Shown one piece after another: positions 288 to 58,588 of a stretch of DNA of 64,000 nucleotides. The notes beneath the pieces are model-generated. The model was not told where the DNA came from. It did no database searches and saw only the letters and a program-made list of their open reading frames with translations. The number at the start of each line of letters is the position of its first letter. Within the stretch, counting starts at the first letter, position 1. Position numbers and translations under genes: made by a program. Source of the DNA: Companilactobacillus heilongjiangensis (GTDB lineage Bacteria; Bacillota; Bacilli; Lactobacillales; Lactobacillaceae); the NCBI RefSeq assembly GCF_000831645.3, contig NZ_CP012559.1, positions 1,550,001 through 1,614,000 of the forward strand, read 5' to 3'.

Positions 288-383
288 TATATCCATTACG
301 CACGGTGCTAGTTGATGACCTATTACAAATATTTCATAGTCTAAAATTGTTTAAATACTTTCACATTCAACTAATAACGATTG

Positions 384-582
384 ATTAGTCGGAAGAGCTG
401 GGAAATATTTGTGTGCCGTGGTAGTGGTATACGTACGGAAGGAATCTTCCGTACGTATACCACCGGACGTGTTTGGAGACTTGACGAACTGTGTCAAGGC
501 TTCAAATCGAGGTTCGAGACCACATTTTGGCTCGGGCCGTTCCGCACAGCTTGAGAATATTTCCCAGCTCTGGAGACGGCAT
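384..582 (+). repeat. Cloverleaf repeat copy 2 (forward)
   Basis: The outer stem GGAAGAGCTGGGAAATATT pairs with AATATTTCCCAGCTCT near 560-572, and the end is GGAGACGGC. Arm 1 is a long perfect hairpin (GTGGTATACGTACGGAAG and its complement). Arm 2 is GTTTGGAGACTTGAC against GTCAAGGCTTCAAAT with one A.G mismatch. Arm 3 is GGTTCGAGACC against GGCTCGGGCC. It shares its outer stem with copies 14 and 18. A further inverted match (299-313 with 587-601) lies just outside. Nothing else is seen in 288-383 or 583-616. Confidence 0.85.
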
Positions 583-615
583 ACTTAACTAGCACCACGC
601 GTATCCCATTATACT

Positions 616-9845: not shown

Positions 9846-9881
9846 GAACTGATAGGGTTTTTCTATCGGTTCTTTTTTTTT
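9846..9881 (+). terminator. Intrinsic terminator after the DUF3042 gene
   Basis: GAACTGATAG pairs with CTATCGGTTC (one G-T pair), followed by nine T. Repeat copy 3 begins at the very next base. Confidence 0.9.
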
Positions 9882-10074
9882 GCCGCCTCCAGGTGCCAGT
9901 AAGTAAAATAGTCCGCGGTGAGGACCGGTCCGAGCCAAAGTGCGGTCTCGAACCTCGATTTGAAGCCTTACCACAGTTCGGTAAGTCTCCAAATTCGCCC
10001 TGTGGTGTAATGGCTAAAGCCATAACGCCACCTCCACCGCTGTACTATTTTACTTACTGGCACCTTCCGGCTAA
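9882..10074 (-). repeat. Cloverleaf repeat copy 3 (reverse)
   Basis: It reads GCCGCCTCCAGGTGCCAGTA, then arm 3 (GGTCCGAGCC / GGTCTCGAACC), arm 2 (TTTGAAGCCTTACC / GGTAAGTCTCCAAA), arm 1 (GGTGTAATGGCTAAAGCCAT / AACGCC) and the other outer strand TACTGGCACCTTCCGGC. It starts exactly at the end of the T run of the preceding terminator. It pairs with copy 4 across a 180-bp AT-rich linker that holds no gene. Confidence 0.88.
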
Positions 10075-10253
10075 ATCTCGCGTAATTTGTAGTTTAACCA
10101 TATCCTCTTATTTAATAATCTACAATGTTTAACTTCATAATGGAATATTGAAAAGTAAACCGAAGCATTTTCTGTTGATTCAATCAATATTATAAAATCC
10201 ATCAATCCAATTTAATTTATAGAGATAATACCAACAGAACTCTTTAAAACTCA

Positions 10254-10442
10254 GAGCCACCGGGCGCAAGTGATGAAGACCGCAGTGGCAGTGGTGTTAG
10301 GCCGGCGAACTTCCGGTCTTACAGCACAGGACGTCTTTTGAACTTCGCAAAGACCGCGAATTTCAAAAGCGAGGGTCGAGACCGCACTTCGGCTCGAGCC
10401 GGTCCCACAGCAGGCTTCATCACTTGCGCCCGGTGGCGGCAT
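10254..10442 (+). repeat. Cloverleaf repeat copy 4 (forward)
   Basis: The outer stem GCCACCGGGCGCAAGTGATG pairs with CATCACTTGCGCCCGGTGGC. Arm 1 is GTTAGGCCGG/CCGGTCTTAC, arm 2 is CTTTTGAA.TTCGC/GCGAATTTCAAAAG, arm 3 is GGTCGAGACC/GGCTCGAGCC. The outer end GGCGGCA lies about 20 bp before the terminator of the next minus-strand gene. Confidence 0.88.
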
Positions 10443-10463
10443 CCTTCAATAGCACACCAACAA

Positions 10464-23868: not shown

Positions 23869-23916
23869 AAAAGTCCAAGTAATCTCGATTAAGAGAAAAC
23901 TTGGACTTTTTATTTT
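23869..23916 (+). terminator. Intrinsic terminator of yidC
   Basis: AAAAGTCCAAGT pairs with ACTTGGACTTTT and ends TTTTATTTT. Repeat copy 5 begins directly after it. Confidence 0.9.
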
Positions 23917-24107
23917 GCCGTCTCCAGAGCAGGCAAGTATTTCGCCTGCTGTGCGGTACGGCCCGAGCCAAAGTGCGGTCTCGAGCCTCGGTTGTTTTGA
24001 AGCCTTTCCATAAACCGAAAAATCTCCAAACTCGCCCGGTGGTGTAATTGCTAAAGCAATAACGCCACTTCCACTGCTGGTGAATACTTTCCTGCTCTTC
24101 CGACTAA
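23917..24107 (-). repeat. Cloverleaf repeat copy 5 (reverse)
   Basis: The outer end GCCGTCTCC is followed by outer stem AGAGCAGG.AAGTATT, pairing with AATACTT.CCTGCTCT. Arm 3 is GGCCCGAGCC/GGTCTCGAGCC, arm 2 carries a four-base insertion (GTTGTTTTGAAG), and arm 1 is GGTGTAATTGCTAAAGCAAT/AACGCC. The inner end is TTCCGACTAA. It is followed by a 264-bp AT-rich linker with no gene and then copy 6. Confidence 0.88.
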
Positions 24108-24371
24108 TTTAACTTTTTAATTCTAAAGACTATGTAAATATTAATTATTTAGAATTTAAAACATTGATTCAATTTATAATTCAGAAATCACACAATCATG
24201 TTAAAAACCAGCTTAATTTTAATACTCCGGTATACTTCAACCGACTTTAACCAACTTGATTAAAGGTTAAACTTCGAAAACTCGATATGAGTATTGCCGA
24301 AAGAATCCCAGTAATGATTCATTCAAAATATTTAGAATACACTATTTGATCATTTATCTAAATACAATAAA

Positions 24372-24554
24372 TTAGTTGGAAGAGCTGAGCGTATTCATCT
24401 GCCGCGAAAGTGGCGTTAGAGCTTTAGCTCTTACACCACCGGGCGTGTTGGAGACTTTCCGGTCTGTGGAAAGGCTTCAACCGAGGTTCGAGACCGCACT
24501 GTGGCTCGAACCGTACCGCGCAGCAGAATGAATACGCTCAGCTCTGGAGACGGA
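24372..24554 (+). repeat. Cloverleaf repeat copy 6 (forward)
   Basis: The outer stem GAGCTGAGCGTATTC pairs with GAATACGCTCAGCTC; the ends are TTAGTTGGAA and GGAGACGG. Arm 1 is GGCGTTAGAGCT/AGCTCTTACACC, arm 2 GTTGGAGACTTTCC/GGAAAGGCTTCAAC, arm 3 GGTTCGAGACC/GGCTCGAACC (perfect). Compared with copy 10 it differs in stems by paired changes. Confidence 0.9.
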
Positions 24555-24581
24555 AGCCTTCAGCCTTTAGAAAAGAAAAAA

Positions 24582-28712: not shown

Positions 28713-28903
28713 ACGTATCTCCTATACATAAAATATTAAATTATCTTTAATTATAGCTTAATCATTAATTTGAATATGTCACGTTGTTGGCAATGCATTA
28801 ATGATTTTAACATATAGCAAAAATTAAAAGAAGACAAGCTTTAATTTTTATTTTTTTAAAACAGTAAAAGTTTTATGTTTGAAAGTTAAAAAATTGGTGT
28901 TTT

Positions 28904-29085
28904 GCCGTCGGAGCTGGGAAGAAATTATAACCACGGTGCGACCGGTTCGAGCCAAGGTCTCGAACCTCGATTTTGAGCTTCGCAAAGTTCGCGAATCTCA
29001 AAATACGTCAGTGGTGTAAGAGCAGAAGACCACTGCTCTTACACCACTTTCACTGCGGGTGGATTTCTCACAATCTCCGACTATT
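28904..29085 (-). repeat. Cloverleaf repeat copy 7 (reverse, diverged outer stem)
   Basis: The outer end GCCGTCGGAG and inner end CTCCGACTATT pair only imperfectly. Arm 3 is compact and perfect (GGTTCGAGCC/GGTCTCGAACC), arm 2 is TTTTGAGCTTCGC/GCGAATCTCAAAA, and arm 1 is a long hairpin (GTGGTGTAAGAGCAG, complement at 29030-29047). It lies 190 bp upstream of the arlR start. The linker of about 175 bp to copy 8 holds no gene. Confidence 0.82.
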
Positions 29086-29261
29086 TTATTTTTATATTTA
29101 TTTAGTTAACCTATACTTTCCTATTTAAAATACCGAAAATTACAAATTAACAATAATTAAAACGATTTAAAGTATTCATCACTTAACAACTAATAATCAG
29201 CTGACTATTAATTAAATTATCCGACTGACAATAATAAATAAAATCGGATATTTTAATACTC

Positions 29262-29439
29262 TAGCCACGGACTGGCAGTAATGTAGTCCGCTGTGGAAGT
29301 GGCGTTATGGCTTTAGCCATTACACCACAGGGCGACTTTTGAGACTTGCTGATTTTGCAAGGCTCAAAAGCGAGGTGCGAGACCTTGGCTCGCACCGGTC
29401 CTCATAGCGGAACTACATTACTGCCGGTCCGTGGCGGCA
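29262..29439 (+). repeat. Cloverleaf repeat copy 8 (forward)
   Basis: The outer stem GCCACGGACTGGCAGTAATG pairs with CATTACTGCCGGTCCGTGGC. Arm 1 is GGCGTTATGGCT/AGCCATTACACC, arm 2 CTTTTGAGACTTGC/GCAAGGCTCAAAAG. Arm 3 is GGTGCGAGACC/GGCTCGCACC: its fourth base pair is G-C where most copies have T-A, a compensated change. The outer end GGCGGCA is 20 bp from the gnd terminator. Confidence 0.9.
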
Positions 29440-29458
29440 TCCCCAAAAGCAAAGAAAA

Positions 29459-34985: not shown

Positions 34986-35013
34986 TTTCTCTTTTCGAAG
35001 GTTGGCAGTTAAT

Positions 35014-35194
35014 CGTCTACAGGGCTGAGAATATATACCTGCTATGCGGACCGGTCCGAGCCACAGTGCGGTCTCGAACCTCGGTTTGAAGCCTCGCAAA
35101 GTACGCGAGTCTCCAAACACGCCCGGTGGTGTAAGAGCTAAAGCTCTAACGCCACACCCACAGCGGGTATATATTCTCAGCCCTTCCGACTAAT
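35014..35194 (-). repeat. Cloverleaf repeat copy 9 (reverse), in the nadD leader
   Basis: The outer stem GGGCTGAGAATATATACC pairs with GGTATATATTCTCAGCCC. Arm 3 is GGTCCGAGCC/GGTCTCGAACC, arm 2 GTTTGAAGCCTCGC/GCGAGTCTCCAAAC, arm 1 GGTGTAAGAGCTAAAGCTCT/AACGCC. The outer end is degenerate (CGTCTAC). In the minus-strand transcript towards nadD it would be read in forward sense. Copy 10 follows after a 180-bp AT-rich linker without a gene. Confidence 0.9.
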
Positions 35195-35376
35195 TGATTT
35201 TTTATTAGTACTTATAATTTTATTTATCTAACTGTCCTAAAAATAAATTCTAGCCCGAATTATTAACATCAACATTAATATCTGATCGTTTATTTCATAA
35301 AACAACCAAACATAACCGCAATTACAATAAAACCAGCAATAATTCATTTAAACAGTTATCTAATAAAAAATTAAAC

Positions 35377-35558
35377 CAGTTGGAAGAGATGAGAGTATTC
35401 ATCAGCAGCGAAAGTGGCGTTATGGCTTTAGCCATTACACCACCGGGCGTGTTGGAGACTTTCCGTTTTGTGGAAAGGCTTCAACCGAGGTTCGAGACCG
35501 CTCTTCGGCTCGGGCCGTTCCGCGCAGCAGATGAATACTCTCATCTCTGGAAACGACA
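35377..35558 (+). repeat. Cloverleaf repeat copy 10 (forward)
   Basis: The outer stem GAGATGAGAGTATTC pairs with GAATACTCTCATCTC. Arm 1 is GGCGTTATGGCT/AGCCATTACACC, arm 2 GTTGGAGACTTTCC/GGAAAGGCTTCAAC, arm 3 GGTTCGAGACC/GGCTCGGGCC. It is a close relative of copy 6: both outer-stem and arm-1 differences are compensated. It lies about 45 bp from the yhbY stop codon. Confidence 0.9.
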
Positions 35559-35600
35559 TACTTAGATAAACTTTCAGCCTTCAGTTCTCTTCACTTAAAT

Positions 35601-39260: not shown

Positions 39261-40280
39261 TTAGAATTCATTATATTTAATCAAACTATCTACTGCACTC
39301 AATACTGTTGTTTCATTATTAGACAATGGTTCCCAACCTAAAATTCTTTTAGCTTTTTGATTGCTGACATTGCGATTCATACTCTTCATCAATTTTCCTT
39401 CTTTAGCAGTTTCGTTAAATAATGCCGCAATATTCATTATCCAGTCCGGTAACTTCTTGGAACTCACCTTGCTTGCTACTTGTGGACGTCTTTGCTGAAT
39501 TAATGATACAATTTCTCGCATTGAAATTTGACCGTCCGCTGAGGCAATAAATCTTTGTCCGGCTGCTTCTGGTGTTTCCATTGCTCTGATTTGAATATCT
39601 GCTACATCTCTCACATCAACTACATTTAGTGGTAAATTGGGAATCCAACTCACTTTGCCTGATAACAAATTTTTCAAAAGGTCGAAACTTCCGGACACAT
39701 GAGCATTTAACGCTGAACCGAAGATTGCTACTGGATTGACTGTCACTAGTTCCAAATTGACATCTGACTTATTCGCGTAATTCCAAGCTGCTTTCTCTGC
39801 CAAAAGTTTCGATTTCTCATAAATAGATAATCCTGGTTGATTCTCATCTGTCCAATCGTCTTCGGTGGTTACGCCTGACTTTTTACTAAAACCAACCGCT
39901 CCAAAGTTCGAAGTCATTACTACTCGTTTAACGCCACTTTCATTAGCCGCCTTTAGAATACGCATTGTTCCATCTAAAGCCGGGCGAATCGCATCCAATT
40001 CATTCTTGGGTTTATCGAAAAATACTGGTGAGGCAACGCTGAAGACTCCATCGCAATCCTGCATTGCTTCAATCCAATTATCGTCACTTGATAGATCTGC
40101 TTTGATAAATGATAGTTTTGAAAGATTTTTAGCATCATTAGCTTGTAAAACCTTTAGTATTCTTTTCTGGCCACTTTCCTTTCGAATGGTAGTTCTTACG
40201 TCGTAGCCTTTATTTAATAATTGTAGAATAACTTGCAAACCTACAAATCCCGTGCCACCAGTCACTAATACTTTTTTCAT
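39261..40280 (-). CDS. NAD(P)-dependent SDR (dihydroflavonol reductase-like / aldehyde reductase)
   Basis: An extended short-chain dehydrogenase, 339 aa from the ATG at 40280. The cofactor loop is VLVTGGTGFVGLQ (GGxGxxG), with FSVASPVFFDKP, the catalytic YxxxK in SIYEKSKLLAEKA, and the conserved VNPVAIFG after it. This fits the DFR-like/aldehyde reductase group that reduces ketones or aldehydes with NADPH. The substrate is unknown. AAGGAG lies upstream of the ATG. Its promoter overlaps a palindrome that is probably the operator for the divergently encoded MerR protein. Confidence 0.9.
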   Translation of the reverse strand: MKKVLVTGGTGFVGLQVILQLLNKGYDVRTTIRKESGQKRILKVLQANDAKNLSKLSFIKADLSSDDNWIEAMQDCDGVFSVASPVFFDKPKNELDAIRPALDGTMRILKAANESGVKRVVMTSNFGAVGFSKKSGVTTEDDWTDENQPGLSIYEKSKLLAEKAAWNYANKSDVNLELVTVNPVAIFGSALNAHVSGSFDLLKNLLSGKVSWIPNLPLNVVDVRDVADIQIRAMETPEAAGQRFIASADGQISMREIVSLIQQRRPQVASKVSSKKLPDWIMNIAALFNETAKEGKLMKSMNRNVSNQKAKRILGWEPLSNNETTVLSAVDSLIKYNEF

Positions 40281-50591: not shown

Positions 50592-50680
50592 ATATTCTCC
50601 AATAAAACTGAAATTAACTAATTCTATTTTAACAAATACTGCTGTGTTGTAACAGATTAGCGGTGTTTATTATTTGTTTA

Positions 50681-50865
50681 TCCGTCTCCAGAGATGAGAG
50701 TATTCATATGCTGCGCGGAACGGCCCGAGCCAAAGAACGGTCTCGAACCTCGGTTGAAGCCTTACCACAGACCGGTAAGTCTCCAACACGCCCGGTGGTG
50801 TAATGGCTAAAGCCATAACGCCACTTTCGCTGCATAAGAATACGCTCATCTCTTCCAACTAATTT
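50681..50865 (-). repeat. Cloverleaf repeat copy 12 (reverse)
   Basis: The outer end CCGTCTCC leads into AGAGATGAGAGTATTC, pairing with GAATACGCTCATCTCT with one mismatch. Arm 3 is GGCCCGAGCC/GGTCTCGAACC, arm 2 GTTGAAGCCTTACC/GGTAAGTCTCCAAC, arm 1 GGTGTAATGGCTAAAGCCAT/AACGCC. It lies about 90 bp upstream of polA; a 115-bp AT-rich linker separates it from copy 13. Confidence 0.9.
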
Positions 50866-50981
50866 ATTTTTAATACAGAATAATCCATTACAATTTCGAA
50901 TCATCTATACATTTAGAAAAAAATTCAATTTAAAAACAATAGCTACATCCTTAATTGATACGAACTGACTTCTTCAATGCA

Positions 50982-51169
50982 TTAGCCGGAGAGCAAGATA
51001 GATTCACCCGCAGTGAAAGTTGTGTTGGAAAGGCGACTTTCCTTTCTTACACAACTGACGTATTTTGAGATTTGCGGTTTTTGCAAAGCTCAAAATCGAG
51101 GCTCGAGACCGCACTTTGGCTCGAACCGGTCTCACCGCGGACGAAATCTATCTTGCCCTCCGGCGGCAG
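50982..51169 (+). repeat. Cloverleaf repeat copy 13 (forward)
   Basis: The outer stem GCCGGAG.GCAAGATAGATT pairs with AATCTATCTTGC.CTCCGGC. Arm 1 is TTGTGTTGGAAAGG/CCTTTCTTACACAA, arm 2 TTTTGAGATTTGC/GCAAAGCTCAAAA, arm 3 GGCTCGAGACC/GGCTCGAACC. The outer end GGCGGCA lies close to the MFS gene terminator. Confidence 0.9.
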
Positions 51170-54205: not shown

Positions 54206-55396
54206 ATGACTTATCTATTATCTTTTACAGTCGTCATGATTTTCATATTAATTGGTGAATGGGCCTCTGCCGCCACTCGAGCTTTCGTCCCATCGATTTT
54301 TATTACTGCGGTTCTTTTCGCCATTGGTTTTTGGACCATTTTGCCAAAAAATATCGTCACCCAAGCTTCATATACTCCTCAATTCGTCAGTGTTGCCATG
54401 TCTCTTTTGCTAGTTCAAATGGGTAGTCTGATGGATTTGAAAGAATTAGCTAATCAGTGGAAAGCCGTCTGTATCGCCCTCTTGGGAGTTTCCGGAACCC
54501 TACTTTTCACACTTGTTATTGGATCATTTTTCTTCAATTGGAAAACAGTCGTCGCTGCCGTCCCTCCATTAACCGGTGGTATCGTTGCCGCTTTGTTAAT
54601 GACCGATGGCTTGAAAGCTGCCGGAATCACGTCACTAGTAGCTTTGCCAGTTTCAATGTTTATCATGCACTCAATGATTGGCTATCCACTAACCGCCGTC
54701 TTGCTACGTAAAGAAGGCAAACGTCTATCAGTTAAATATCACAACGAAAAAGACGACCCCAATTCCGAGGTCGCCAAAATTATTAAAAAACATAACATGT
54801 CTGAATCATCAACTAAACGAATGCTAAAATTACCAGATCAATTTCAAACCCCAGTTTTCATCATCACCAGAGTTGCCTTAATCGCCCTACTTGGTAACTG
54901 GATAGCAAGCCTAACGCATGGAGCAGTCAACGCTAACGTTCTCTGCTTAATCTTCGGTGTTATCGCCCACCAATTAGGATTCATCGAAACCAATGCCTTA
55001 GACAAAGCCAAAGTATTCAACTGGCTAATGTATGGCTTGTTATCTTACATTTTTGCACAATTAAGCTTAACAACACCAGCCATTATTGGAAAAATCATCG
55101 TTCAAATTATCGTCTTAATTCTACTAGGAATCTTGGGAATGTTCGTGGCTTCATTCATCCTCGCAAAACCATTTGGAATGAGCCGTGAAATGGCCTTCGC
55201 TTGTTCATTAACAGCCCTATTCGGATTCCCAGCCGACTTCATTTTAACAACTGAAATTTGCCAAACAGTCGCTCAAAGTAACGACGAAGAAGCCTATCTA
55301 ACCGAATCAATCCTACCAAAGATGTTAGTCGGTGGCTTTGCGACAGTATCAGTAGCTTCAGTTATTATCGCATCAGTATTCCTTAAGTTACTTTAA
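54206..55396 (+). CDS. GltS-like (sodium:glutamate symporter family) permease
   Basis: A 396-aa polytopic membrane protein with ten or so helices. A central hydrophilic loop (about 170-215, RKEGKRLSVKYHNEKDD) separates two halves. The half-related motifs VPPLTGGIVAALLMTDGLKA (about 116-135) and CSLTALFGFPADFILTTEI (about 332-350) look like the re-entrant loops of the ESS/GltS group, but identity to true GltS is not obvious, so the ligand is uncertain. GGAGG lies seven bases before the ATG. The stop codon is only five bases from repeat copy 14, so no separate terminator is present. Confidence 0.7.
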   Translation: MTYLLSFTVVMIFILIGEWASAATRAFVPSIFITAVLFAIGFWTILPKNIVTQASYTPQFVSVAMSLLLVQMGSLMDLKELANQWKAVCIALLGVSGTLLFTLVIGSFFFNWKTVVAAVPPLTGGIVAALLMTDGLKAAGITSLVALPVSMFIMHSMIGYPLTAVLLRKEGKRLSVKYHNEKDDPNSEVAKIIKKHNMSESSTKRMLKLPDQFQTPVFIITRVALIALLGNWIASLTHGAVNANVLCLIFGVIAHQLGFIETNALDKAKVFNWLMYGLLSYIFAQLSLTTPAIIGKIIVQIIVLILLGILGMFVASFILAKPFGMSREMAFACSLTALFGFPADFILTTEICQTVAQSNDEEAYLTESILPKMLVGGFATVSVASVIIASVFLKLL

Positions 55397-55400
55397 ATAT

Positions 55401-55596
55401 TCCGTCTCCAGAGCTGGGAAATATTCTCAAGCCGTGCGGAACGGTCCGAGCCAAAGTACGGTCTCGAACCTCGGTTTGAAGCCTTGACAAATCCCGTCAA
55501 GTCTCCAAACACGCCCGGTGGTATAAGTACGAGAGGTTCTCTCGTACTTATACCACTACCACGGCACACAAATATTTCCCAGCTCTTCCGACTAAT
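55401..55596 (-). repeat. Cloverleaf repeat copy 14 (reverse)
   Basis: The outer stem AGAGCTGGGAAATATT pairs with AATATTTCCCAGCTCT. Arm 3 is GGTCCGAGCC/GGTCTCGAACC, arm 2 GTTTGAAGCCTTGAC/GTCAAGTCTCCAAAC. Arm 1 is a long perfect hairpin (GTGGTATAAGTACGAGAG and complement, 55516-55555). It is a close relative of copy 2 with compensated arm-1 differences. It starts five bases after the permease stop; its hairpins may serve as the terminator. A 149-bp AT-rich linker follows. Confidence 0.92.
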
Positions 55597-55745
55597 CAAT
55601 TGTTATAAATTGTATGCATGAATTTTCAGATATTTTTATACTTAGCTTATTTTTCAATACTAAATTAGAATTGATGCAAATATTTGTAATAAATTATCAA
55701 CATACATTATATTTAACAACAAATACCTATGAATTCAAAAATACT

Positions 55746-57953: not shown

Positions 57954-58011
57954 GTTTTTTCCCTCACTTGATTAAATTATTTTTTAATTAACATGCAGTG
58001 TTTATAAATAT

Positions 58012-58195
58012 GCCGTCTCCAAATCTGCTAGTATTCCCCTGCTGTGCGGAACGGCCCGAGCCAAAGTTCGGTCTCGAACCTCGGTTTGAATCCTTGCAAG
58101 AAACGCAAGTATCCAAACACGTCCGGTGGTGTAAGAGCTAAAGCTCTAACGCCACTTCCACTGCGAGTAAATACTATCAGATTTTCCGACTAGTT
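58012..58195 (-). repeat. Cloverleaf repeat copy 16 (reverse)
   Basis: The outer end is GCCGTCTCC; the outer stem is CAAATCTGCTAGTATT.CC against GG.AATACTATCAGATTTTCC with mismatches. Arm 3 is GGCCCGAGCC/GGTCTCGAACC, arm 2 GTTTGAATCCTTGC/GCAAGTATCCAAAC (the usual GAGA/GCTT mismatch region is rearranged to a paired GGATAC/GAATCC type), arm 1 GGTGTAAGAGCTAAAGCTCT/AACGCC. It lies 58 bp upstream of the ytpR start. Confidence 0.88.
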
Positions 58196-58307
58196 GGTTC
58201 TGATACTAATAAACTGATTATAGGAATATTTATTCACCATGTTTGAATGCATACTTAAAAACCAACATTTCAAATTTTACACCAAATCAATTAAAAATAA
58301 CCATAAC

Positions 58308-58352
58308 CAGTCGAAAGAGCTGAGAAATATTTCTCAGCTCTAGACATGACAT
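58308..58352 (+). repeat. Cloverleaf repeat copy 17: outer stem only, all arms lost
   Basis: CCAGTCGAAAGAGCTGAGAA (58308-58327) runs straight into ATATTTCTCAGCTCTAGACA. The two outer strands AGAGCTGAGAAATATTTCTCAGCTCT now meet, so the entire interior with arms 1-3 is missing. The ends CAGTCGA and AGACATGACATA match the inner and outer ends of other forward copies. Confidence 0.8.
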
Positions 58353-58456
58353 ATTCAAAAATATGTACTATTTACTCAGATACCGATTACCAATCCATTA
58401 AAAGTATTTAAAACCAACATAAACAAATACCTTTTACATTTAAATACTAACAATAA

Positions 58457-58562
58457 ATTAGTCGGAAGAGCTGGGAAATATTTGTGTGCCGTGGTTCGAG
58501 ACCCGCTTTTTGGCTCGAACCGTTCCGCACAGCTTGAGAATATTTCCCAGCTCTGTAGACGG
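58457..58562 (+). repeat. Cloverleaf repeat copy 18: arms 1 and 2 lost
   Basis: The outer strands match copy 2 almost base for base (GGAAGAGCTGGGAAATATTT on the left, AATATTTCCCAGCTCT on the right). Only arm 3 remains inside (GGTTCGAGACCCG / TGGCTCGAACC). In copy 2 the missing segment runs from about 420 to 502, between GCCGTGGT and GGTTCGAG, so the breakpoint is at or near a short GGT match. Confidence 0.85.
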
Positions 58563-58588
58563 GATATTTAACTAGTACTTTTAGTGTT

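Follow-up and report, generated by a model that had tools for sequence, protein, structure and literature searches.

The window, which is the whole stretch of DNA analysed, is 64,000 nucleotides in length and covers positions 1,550,001–1,614,000 of the single 2.79-Mb contig of the Companilactobacillus heilongjiangensis genome (G000). It contains a 635-bp intergenic gap (57954–58588), with a gene that by eye is ytpR-like on one side and one that is thioredoxin-like on the other. The named relatives closest to the thioredoxin-like gene are Companilactobacillus species. At 25 of 28 related loci (L065–L092, nearly all named Companilactobacillus, with one MAG titled uncultured Lactobacillus), the gap is only 19–49 bp in length. 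The gap at the same locus in C. nantensis is 528 bp and contains two cloverleaves with another outer stem.

The gap holds a short family-2 element on the forward strand at 58457–58562, composed of both outer strands, the inner stem, and arm 3, with arms 1 and 2 deleted. Its left outer strand, AGTCGGAAGAGCTGGGAAATATT, is located at 58460–58482 and its right outer strand at 58539–58562, and what separates them is limited to the inner stem plus arm 3 (GGTTCGAGACC...GGCTCGAACC). Arm 3 (58493–58521) retains its hairpin and has one inserted C. The deletion junction, CCGTGG^TTCGAG (58488–58500), falls within a 7-base near-repeat of the long form, CCGTGGT/CCGAGGT. An armless derivative is present at 58308–58352, where the outer strands join directly to form a perfect 26-base palindrome (58316–58341) with AATATT at its center; in long copies, the arm region has AATATTT at each end.

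Two long family-2 copies are present in the window. The first (298–602, forward strand) has 18-bp terminal inverted repeats at 298–315 and 585–602 and contains a cloverleaf at 353–595, taken here as the second copy numbered in the original prediction. The other is on the reverse strand at 55385–55616. Aligned with the first long copy, each half of the short copy is 89% identical (358–422 with 58431–58495, and 520–595 with 58503–58578). This alignment bears out the original prediction that arms 1 and 2 are absent and arm 3 intact at 58457–58562, and the palindrome does the same for the predicted absence of all three arms at 58308–58352.

The reverse-strand cloverleaf at 58000–58199 belongs to another subfamily (family 1). 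The shrunken copies had been proposed to stand in place of the forward partner of this reverse copy. That pairing fails, as the outer stems differ, and the short copy was rejected as the missing partner. It is a separate element that shares the intergenic gap with its reverse family-1 neighbor.

The full-length element and its fold

The full-length family-2 element is 305 bp. Its parts are the terminal inverted repeats ACGCRTGGTGCTAGTTRA, a left flank of approximately 70 bp, an outer stem with three arms, and, on the right, a flank that is short. The 18-bp terminal inverted repeats, ACGCRTGGTGCTAGTTRA, have 85 matching sites in the genome at up to three mismatches, compared with 5 for the control, and one or both ends are eroded in many older copies. 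Better-preserved copies are bordered by target duplications of 7–9 bp, including ATGAAAAAT (L116), TTCTACTAT (L118), AATTACTT (L131), and the 7-bp ATCCATT (L121); in many older copies none is visible. Open reading frames of at most 70 codons overlap the window copies, and the element itself does not exceed 305 bp.

Flank probes (29) were compared with the genome of a sister species (G010), and 21 loci were aligned; five single-copy probes had a hit but no locus, and one repeated probe was set aside. Six near-flush junctions were picked for reading. Three are clean, precise empty sites, one each for the short copy L121, the armless copy L062, and L202, a remnant of 17 nt; the remaining three junctions are less tidy. 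One flank probe (L006, query 1561–1692) has approximately 18 matches in the sister genome and represents another dispersed repeat family.

The full element looks like a MITE-like, non-autonomous transposon with a central region that folds as a cloverleaf, based on the 18-bp terminal inverted repeats, the 7–9 bp target duplications, and the empty sites in the sister genome. By DNA search (E ≤ 1e-5), 12 of the 35 other congeners contain the element, compared with none of 24 genomes from outside the genus, although pieces of it do occur on plasmids of other Lactobacillales. Rfam covariance models at the gathering score matched only two tRNAs in the window and none of the elements. In the portions of the open-access literature consulted, no description of such elements in Companilactobacillus was recognized.

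The fold was examined in 43 long copies of equal length, using a structure taken from their own consensus, which somewhat favors it; 99.0% of cells pair in this structure. Changes on both sides are present at 17 of 75 pairs, 11 of them in arm 1. None of 500 shuffles reached 17, and slid controls did not exceed 6. The arms are real folds in which pairing is maintained. Selection and hairpin-templated correction fit alike, as do DNA and RNA.

The family is MITE-like, with internal-deletion forms and an unusual three-arm core, and in behavior is closest to Correia elements. As given in the accessible portions of two reports (PMC2649163, PMC2229807), the CREE/NEMIS elements of Neisseria are small, have inverted repeats and a target duplication, and lack a known mobilizing gene; their lengths are approximately 155 and 105 bp, the shorter termed a “Correia internal deletion,” with a further class of 69–73 bp. 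The elements described here resemble them in the inverted repeats, the target duplication, the discrete lengths that include an internal-deletion class, and the lack of a known mobilizing gene. They differ in that the long CREE, in the same portions, has an internal IHF site and 24-bp inverted repeats with TA termini, whereas the present element has a covarying three-arm cloverleaf inside and many deletion junctions tied to hairpin bases. The ends also look unlike Correia repeat ends as these are described in print.

Other bacterial MITEs (QMITE2 of Coxiella, RUP, and ERIC) are described in the consulted part of one report (PMC10969869) as short, with inverted repeats, target duplication, stable stem-loops, and both full-length and truncated copies. 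These traits are shared by the present element, for which no partner insertion sequence was found among the end pairs examined. There is also a likeness to REP and BIME sequences in the dispersed palindromes, the inverted family-1 pairs of the window, and a CGTC-like edge, GCCGTCTCC, seen by eye. REPs are known insertion-sequence targets according to the parts consulted of two further reports (PMC1525189, PMC3733652). The present element is, however, far longer than 20–40 bp, and family 2 has terminal repeats and a target duplication. Of 20 fetched loci with a Y1 transposase, nine were read, including both in the genome itself, and none contains the cloverleaf core. Membership in a REP/RAYT system was rejected on this result and on the difference in size.

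Derived copies and their deletion endpoints

Matches to the short form over positions 1–106 or 3–106 number at least 22 in the genome (40 of 275 candidates scored). The armless palindrome has six sites at up to two mismatches and 11 at up to three, compared with none for a reversed control pattern; of the five sites that reach three mismatches, at least two are right arms belonging to other copies. For the left outer arm, 120 sites were counted with three or fewer mismatches and none in the control; family-1 arms and right arms in the reverse reading are among the 120.

Copies were collected from loci for approximately 100 of the 120 left-arm sites, plus other hits, and were kept with at most three mismatches in the left arm and four in the right. 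These thresholds left out, among others, L029 (a further junction), L213, L197, and the armless copy of the window, whose right flank is shortened. Sixteen family-1-like copies were also set aside from the family-2 set. The remaining 92 family-2 copies consist of 60 long copies with an inner length of 142–147 nucleotides, one hybrid (L209), and 31 derived copies.

The short type has 17 copies, with an inner length of 55 in 16 of them and 56 in that of the window. Four near-short copies have inner lengths of 54, 58, 59, and 61. The armless type has five copies, or six with that of the window. Inner lengths of 17, 79, 107, 114, and 116 are each present in a single copy. Other junctions are found in 9 of the 31 derived copies. 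The copy with an inner length of 116 (L221) is missing arm 3 alone, two copies (L154 and L173) are missing part of arm 1, and one (L131) is missing arm 1 and half of arm 2.

The losses therefore do not form a ladder, and the stepwise loss of arms proposed in the original prediction was not borne out. The short form is a single deletion of 91 nucleotides, and the armless form a single deletion of 152 nucleotides at a different repeat. The sister genome contains eight matches over the whole short query, some with only 73–77% identity; five of its short junctions were read, and all five are different. A 101-bp element in the genome (L112, 1501–1601; G000:C1:67737–67837) is made up of the terminal repeats plus the left flank and lacks a cloverleaf.

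The core consensus contains 20 pairs of seven-base direct repeats (up to one mismatch, spacing of at least 20), several of which are registers of one repeat. Ranked by the number of base pairs broken, the first is AATATTT/AATATTT, with copies 152 nucleotides apart and no pairs broken, which gives the armless form. The second is CCGTGGT/CCGAGGT, 91 nucleotides apart with five pairs broken, which gives the short form. The two repeats with the fewest broken pairs among the 20 are thus those of the two recurrent products. An exact repeat, TGGAGAC (97 nucleotides, 30 pairs broken), has no junctions at up to three mismatches in the scanned loci of the genome.

Eight distinct junctions that are well fitted break 73 pairs in total, compared with a mean expectation of 120.5, and 253 of 20,000 placements that keep both outer arms are as low. 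This constrained null replaced an earlier one (0 of 20,000), which was discarded for ignoring the requirement for both outer arms. Three of the eight junctions are ordinary: for deletions of 129, 67, and 39 nucleotides, 13 of 18, 52 of 80, and 49 of 108 placements, respectively, break as few pairs. The fit is poor (10–19 mismatches) for 5 of the 31 junctions, including that of the window’s own copy with its inserted base.

Origin of the derived forms

The reading we prefer, at a probability of roughly three in four, is that the window copies are internal-deletion derivatives of a MITE-like transposon, that the arms were skipped by slippage between repeats at hairpins, and that the element is moved by a transposase in trans. 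While DNA is replicated or resynthesized in repair, the arm region would form a hairpin or cruciform with short direct repeats at its base, and slippage of the new strand from one repeat to the other would skip the arms. The short form would come from slippage at CCGTGGT/CCGAGGT and the armless form from slippage at AATATTT/AATATTT, with the rarer products coming from weaker repeats. Movement of the element would depend on a transposase acting in trans. Hairpin slippage is supported by the finding that the repeats with the fewest broken pairs give the two recurrent products. The original prediction of slippage across hairpins held insofar as loss occurs at arm boundaries, between short direct repeats at hairpin bases, apparently many times and in the sister species as well; its stepwise lineage did not.

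The closest alternative differs from hairpin slippage only in timing, with the arms lost when a copied or repaired element is resynthesized during transposition; we consider it possible but rather unlikely. It agrees with derivatives that are clean insertions absent from the sister genome, and with the ages of the copies. Over the outer arms and 24 flank bases only, derived copies were not detectably older than long copies, with medians of 5 and 5.5 substitutions compared with 4 (p = 0.96 for short and long, p = 0.43 for all derived). This lack of a difference counts against slow decay and leaves room for deletion near the time of insertion. Slippage alone, however, suffices for the endpoints, and no helper transposase with the same ends was found among the inward end pairs examined in the two genomes.

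The 85 end sites of the genome itself form five inward pairs 0.4–5 kb apart. One pair, 1866 bp apart, holds an IS110 element that interrupts a long element; the other four, some of which were read, appear to join ends of neighboring elements. In the sister genome, one end pair, matched by eye with a spacing of approximately 1.9 kb, contains an ORF of 463 codons that is not transposase-like and that we take to be NADH-oxidase-like. Neither the IS110 element nor this ORF is helper-like, and both were rejected as the helper.

In the original prediction, identical endpoints that recur would have pointed to a minimal form that is mobile. Such endpoints do recur in the genome, and the sister species has other junctions, but the recurrence is better explained by the direct repeats. 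A single short element that arose once and was then amplified by the transposase is a less probable account again. It would explain the junction region common to the 17 short copies, and it agrees with the lack of an age difference between short and long copies. Three short copies (L118, L120, and L121) retain terminal repeats in good condition along with target duplications, and the short copy at approximately 178,000 (L008) lies in a segment that, by eye, recurs with its flanks on a plasmid of L. reuteri, where the junction is the same. Since some short copies sit within intact terminal repeats bordered by target duplications, their mobility is possible.

Against a single amplified origin, derivatives with other junctions are common, and the short type does not cluster on the copy tree. 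This tree, built on shared columns, includes 84 of the 92 copies, with the five armless copies and those of inner lengths 17, 116, and 134 dropped. The 17 short copies need 15 changes on it, compared with a mean of 15.6 after shuffling (206 of 500 as low). The tree is weak, with 2 of 81 inner branches starred, and these force only three changes. Both letters are also present at the position that distinguishes one repeat from the other: T in 11 of the 17 short copies (9 CCGTGG, 2 CCATGG) and A in the other 6 (5 CCGAGG, 1 CTGAGA). This pattern fits more than one event, though later point mutation could do the same.

Given the scatter of the short type over the weak tree, repeated deletion seems to fit better than one amplified minimal element. 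Many origins are the best reading of the short copies, short of proof on so poorly resolved a tree, and gene conversion could also scatter the short state. Among the six loci aligned closely with the sister genome, there is no clean pair of a long and a short copy at one insertion, so that deletion in place is something we infer. At four of these sites (L155, L142, L010, and L154) the element in the sister genome is from another subfamily. Its L159 site is occupied by a long family-2 copy whose target duplication is not the same, and thus by an independent insertion, and its L153 site by an armless-like copy that is perhaps the same insertion and perhaps not.

The reverse polarity, in which the short form is ancestral, arms 1 and 2 were inserted, and CCGWGGT is the duplicated target, is very improbable. 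The 7-base near-repeat on either side of the arms would suit it, but leftover parts of arm 1 or 2 in four copies (L131, L154, L161, and L202) read sensibly as deletions, and much of the core, including arms 2 and 3, is common to other subfamilies and present in 12 other species. Repeats can collapse in assemblies, but we give almost no credence to a collapse of complete copies here, as the genome is a single contig, the 31 derived copies have unique flanks, and derived copies also occur in a second species and a plasmid record.

On the preferred reading of repeated slippage, one genome would serve as a natural replicate experiment on hairpin-driven deletion. It holds dozens of similar structured elements, approximately one third of those examined carry internal deletions that look largely independent, and the competing direct repeats do or do not close a hairpin. 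The effects of folding, repeat length, and distance on endpoints could thus be measured in vivo. The results suggest that discrete short forms of bacterial MITE-like families can come by recurrence and not by amplification of one short ancestor.

IS110 insertions and other subfamilies

The ORF inside one long element (G000:C1:662739–664604) encodes an IS110-family transposase (Pfam PF01548 and PF02371), and the inserted element is approximately 1.55 kb. This ORF has 11 matches in 6 of 36 genomes of the genus (E ≤ 1e-60). The close copies are four identical ones in the genome itself (L292, L298, L301, and L302) and two at 76–77% in genome G001 (L293 and L299). All six, from two species, are located at the boundary between arms 2 and 3 of a cloverleaf (CAAA^...^A[C/T]CGAGG). 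More distant copies (at most 59%) have no adjoining cloverleaf in the four that were read (L294, L295, L297, and L300). Targeting of the arm 2/arm 3 boundary is therefore a trait of this IS110 lineage and not of its wider relatives.

According to the part of the literature consulted, a bridge or seek RNA is used by IS110 elements, so that the cloverleaf may be a programmed IS110 target. The short form lacks the arm 2/arm 3 site, as does the armless form. Arm loss could then be an escape from a dedicated parasite, with the 91-nucleotide deletion kept because the copy is immune to, or rid of, IS110, but we regard this as improbable. Two cloverleaves (39896–40083 of the window, reverse strand, and L194 at 759) contain CAAAACAACCGAGG, which is longer than usual at the IS110 site and may be a footprint left by an IS110 that has since been lost.

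Besides the L. reuteri plasmid, 14 plasmid records (Enterococcus, Ligilactobacillus, and L. fermentum) match only positions 195–240 of the query, its right end. In the two that were opened (L309 and L310), the right-end fragment adjoins a gene annotated with a group II intron maturase domain, and vat(E) is located within approximately 1.5 kb.

Family-1 cloverleaves are arranged as divergent pairs in intergenic gaps of the window (9873–10454, 23905–24555, 28902–29451, 35013–35573, and 50673–51168). No terminal repeats were seen at the ends of these pairs, and several lie by terminator-like hairpins with T runs, identified by eye. A similar arm core within ends of another kind (about CTGAAGGTTGAAAGGTGAAAA) marks a third subfamily, represented by L234, L259, L245, L258, and L306 (G010). 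The C. huachuanensis locus (L065) contains what appears to be a shell of this third subfamily without the core.
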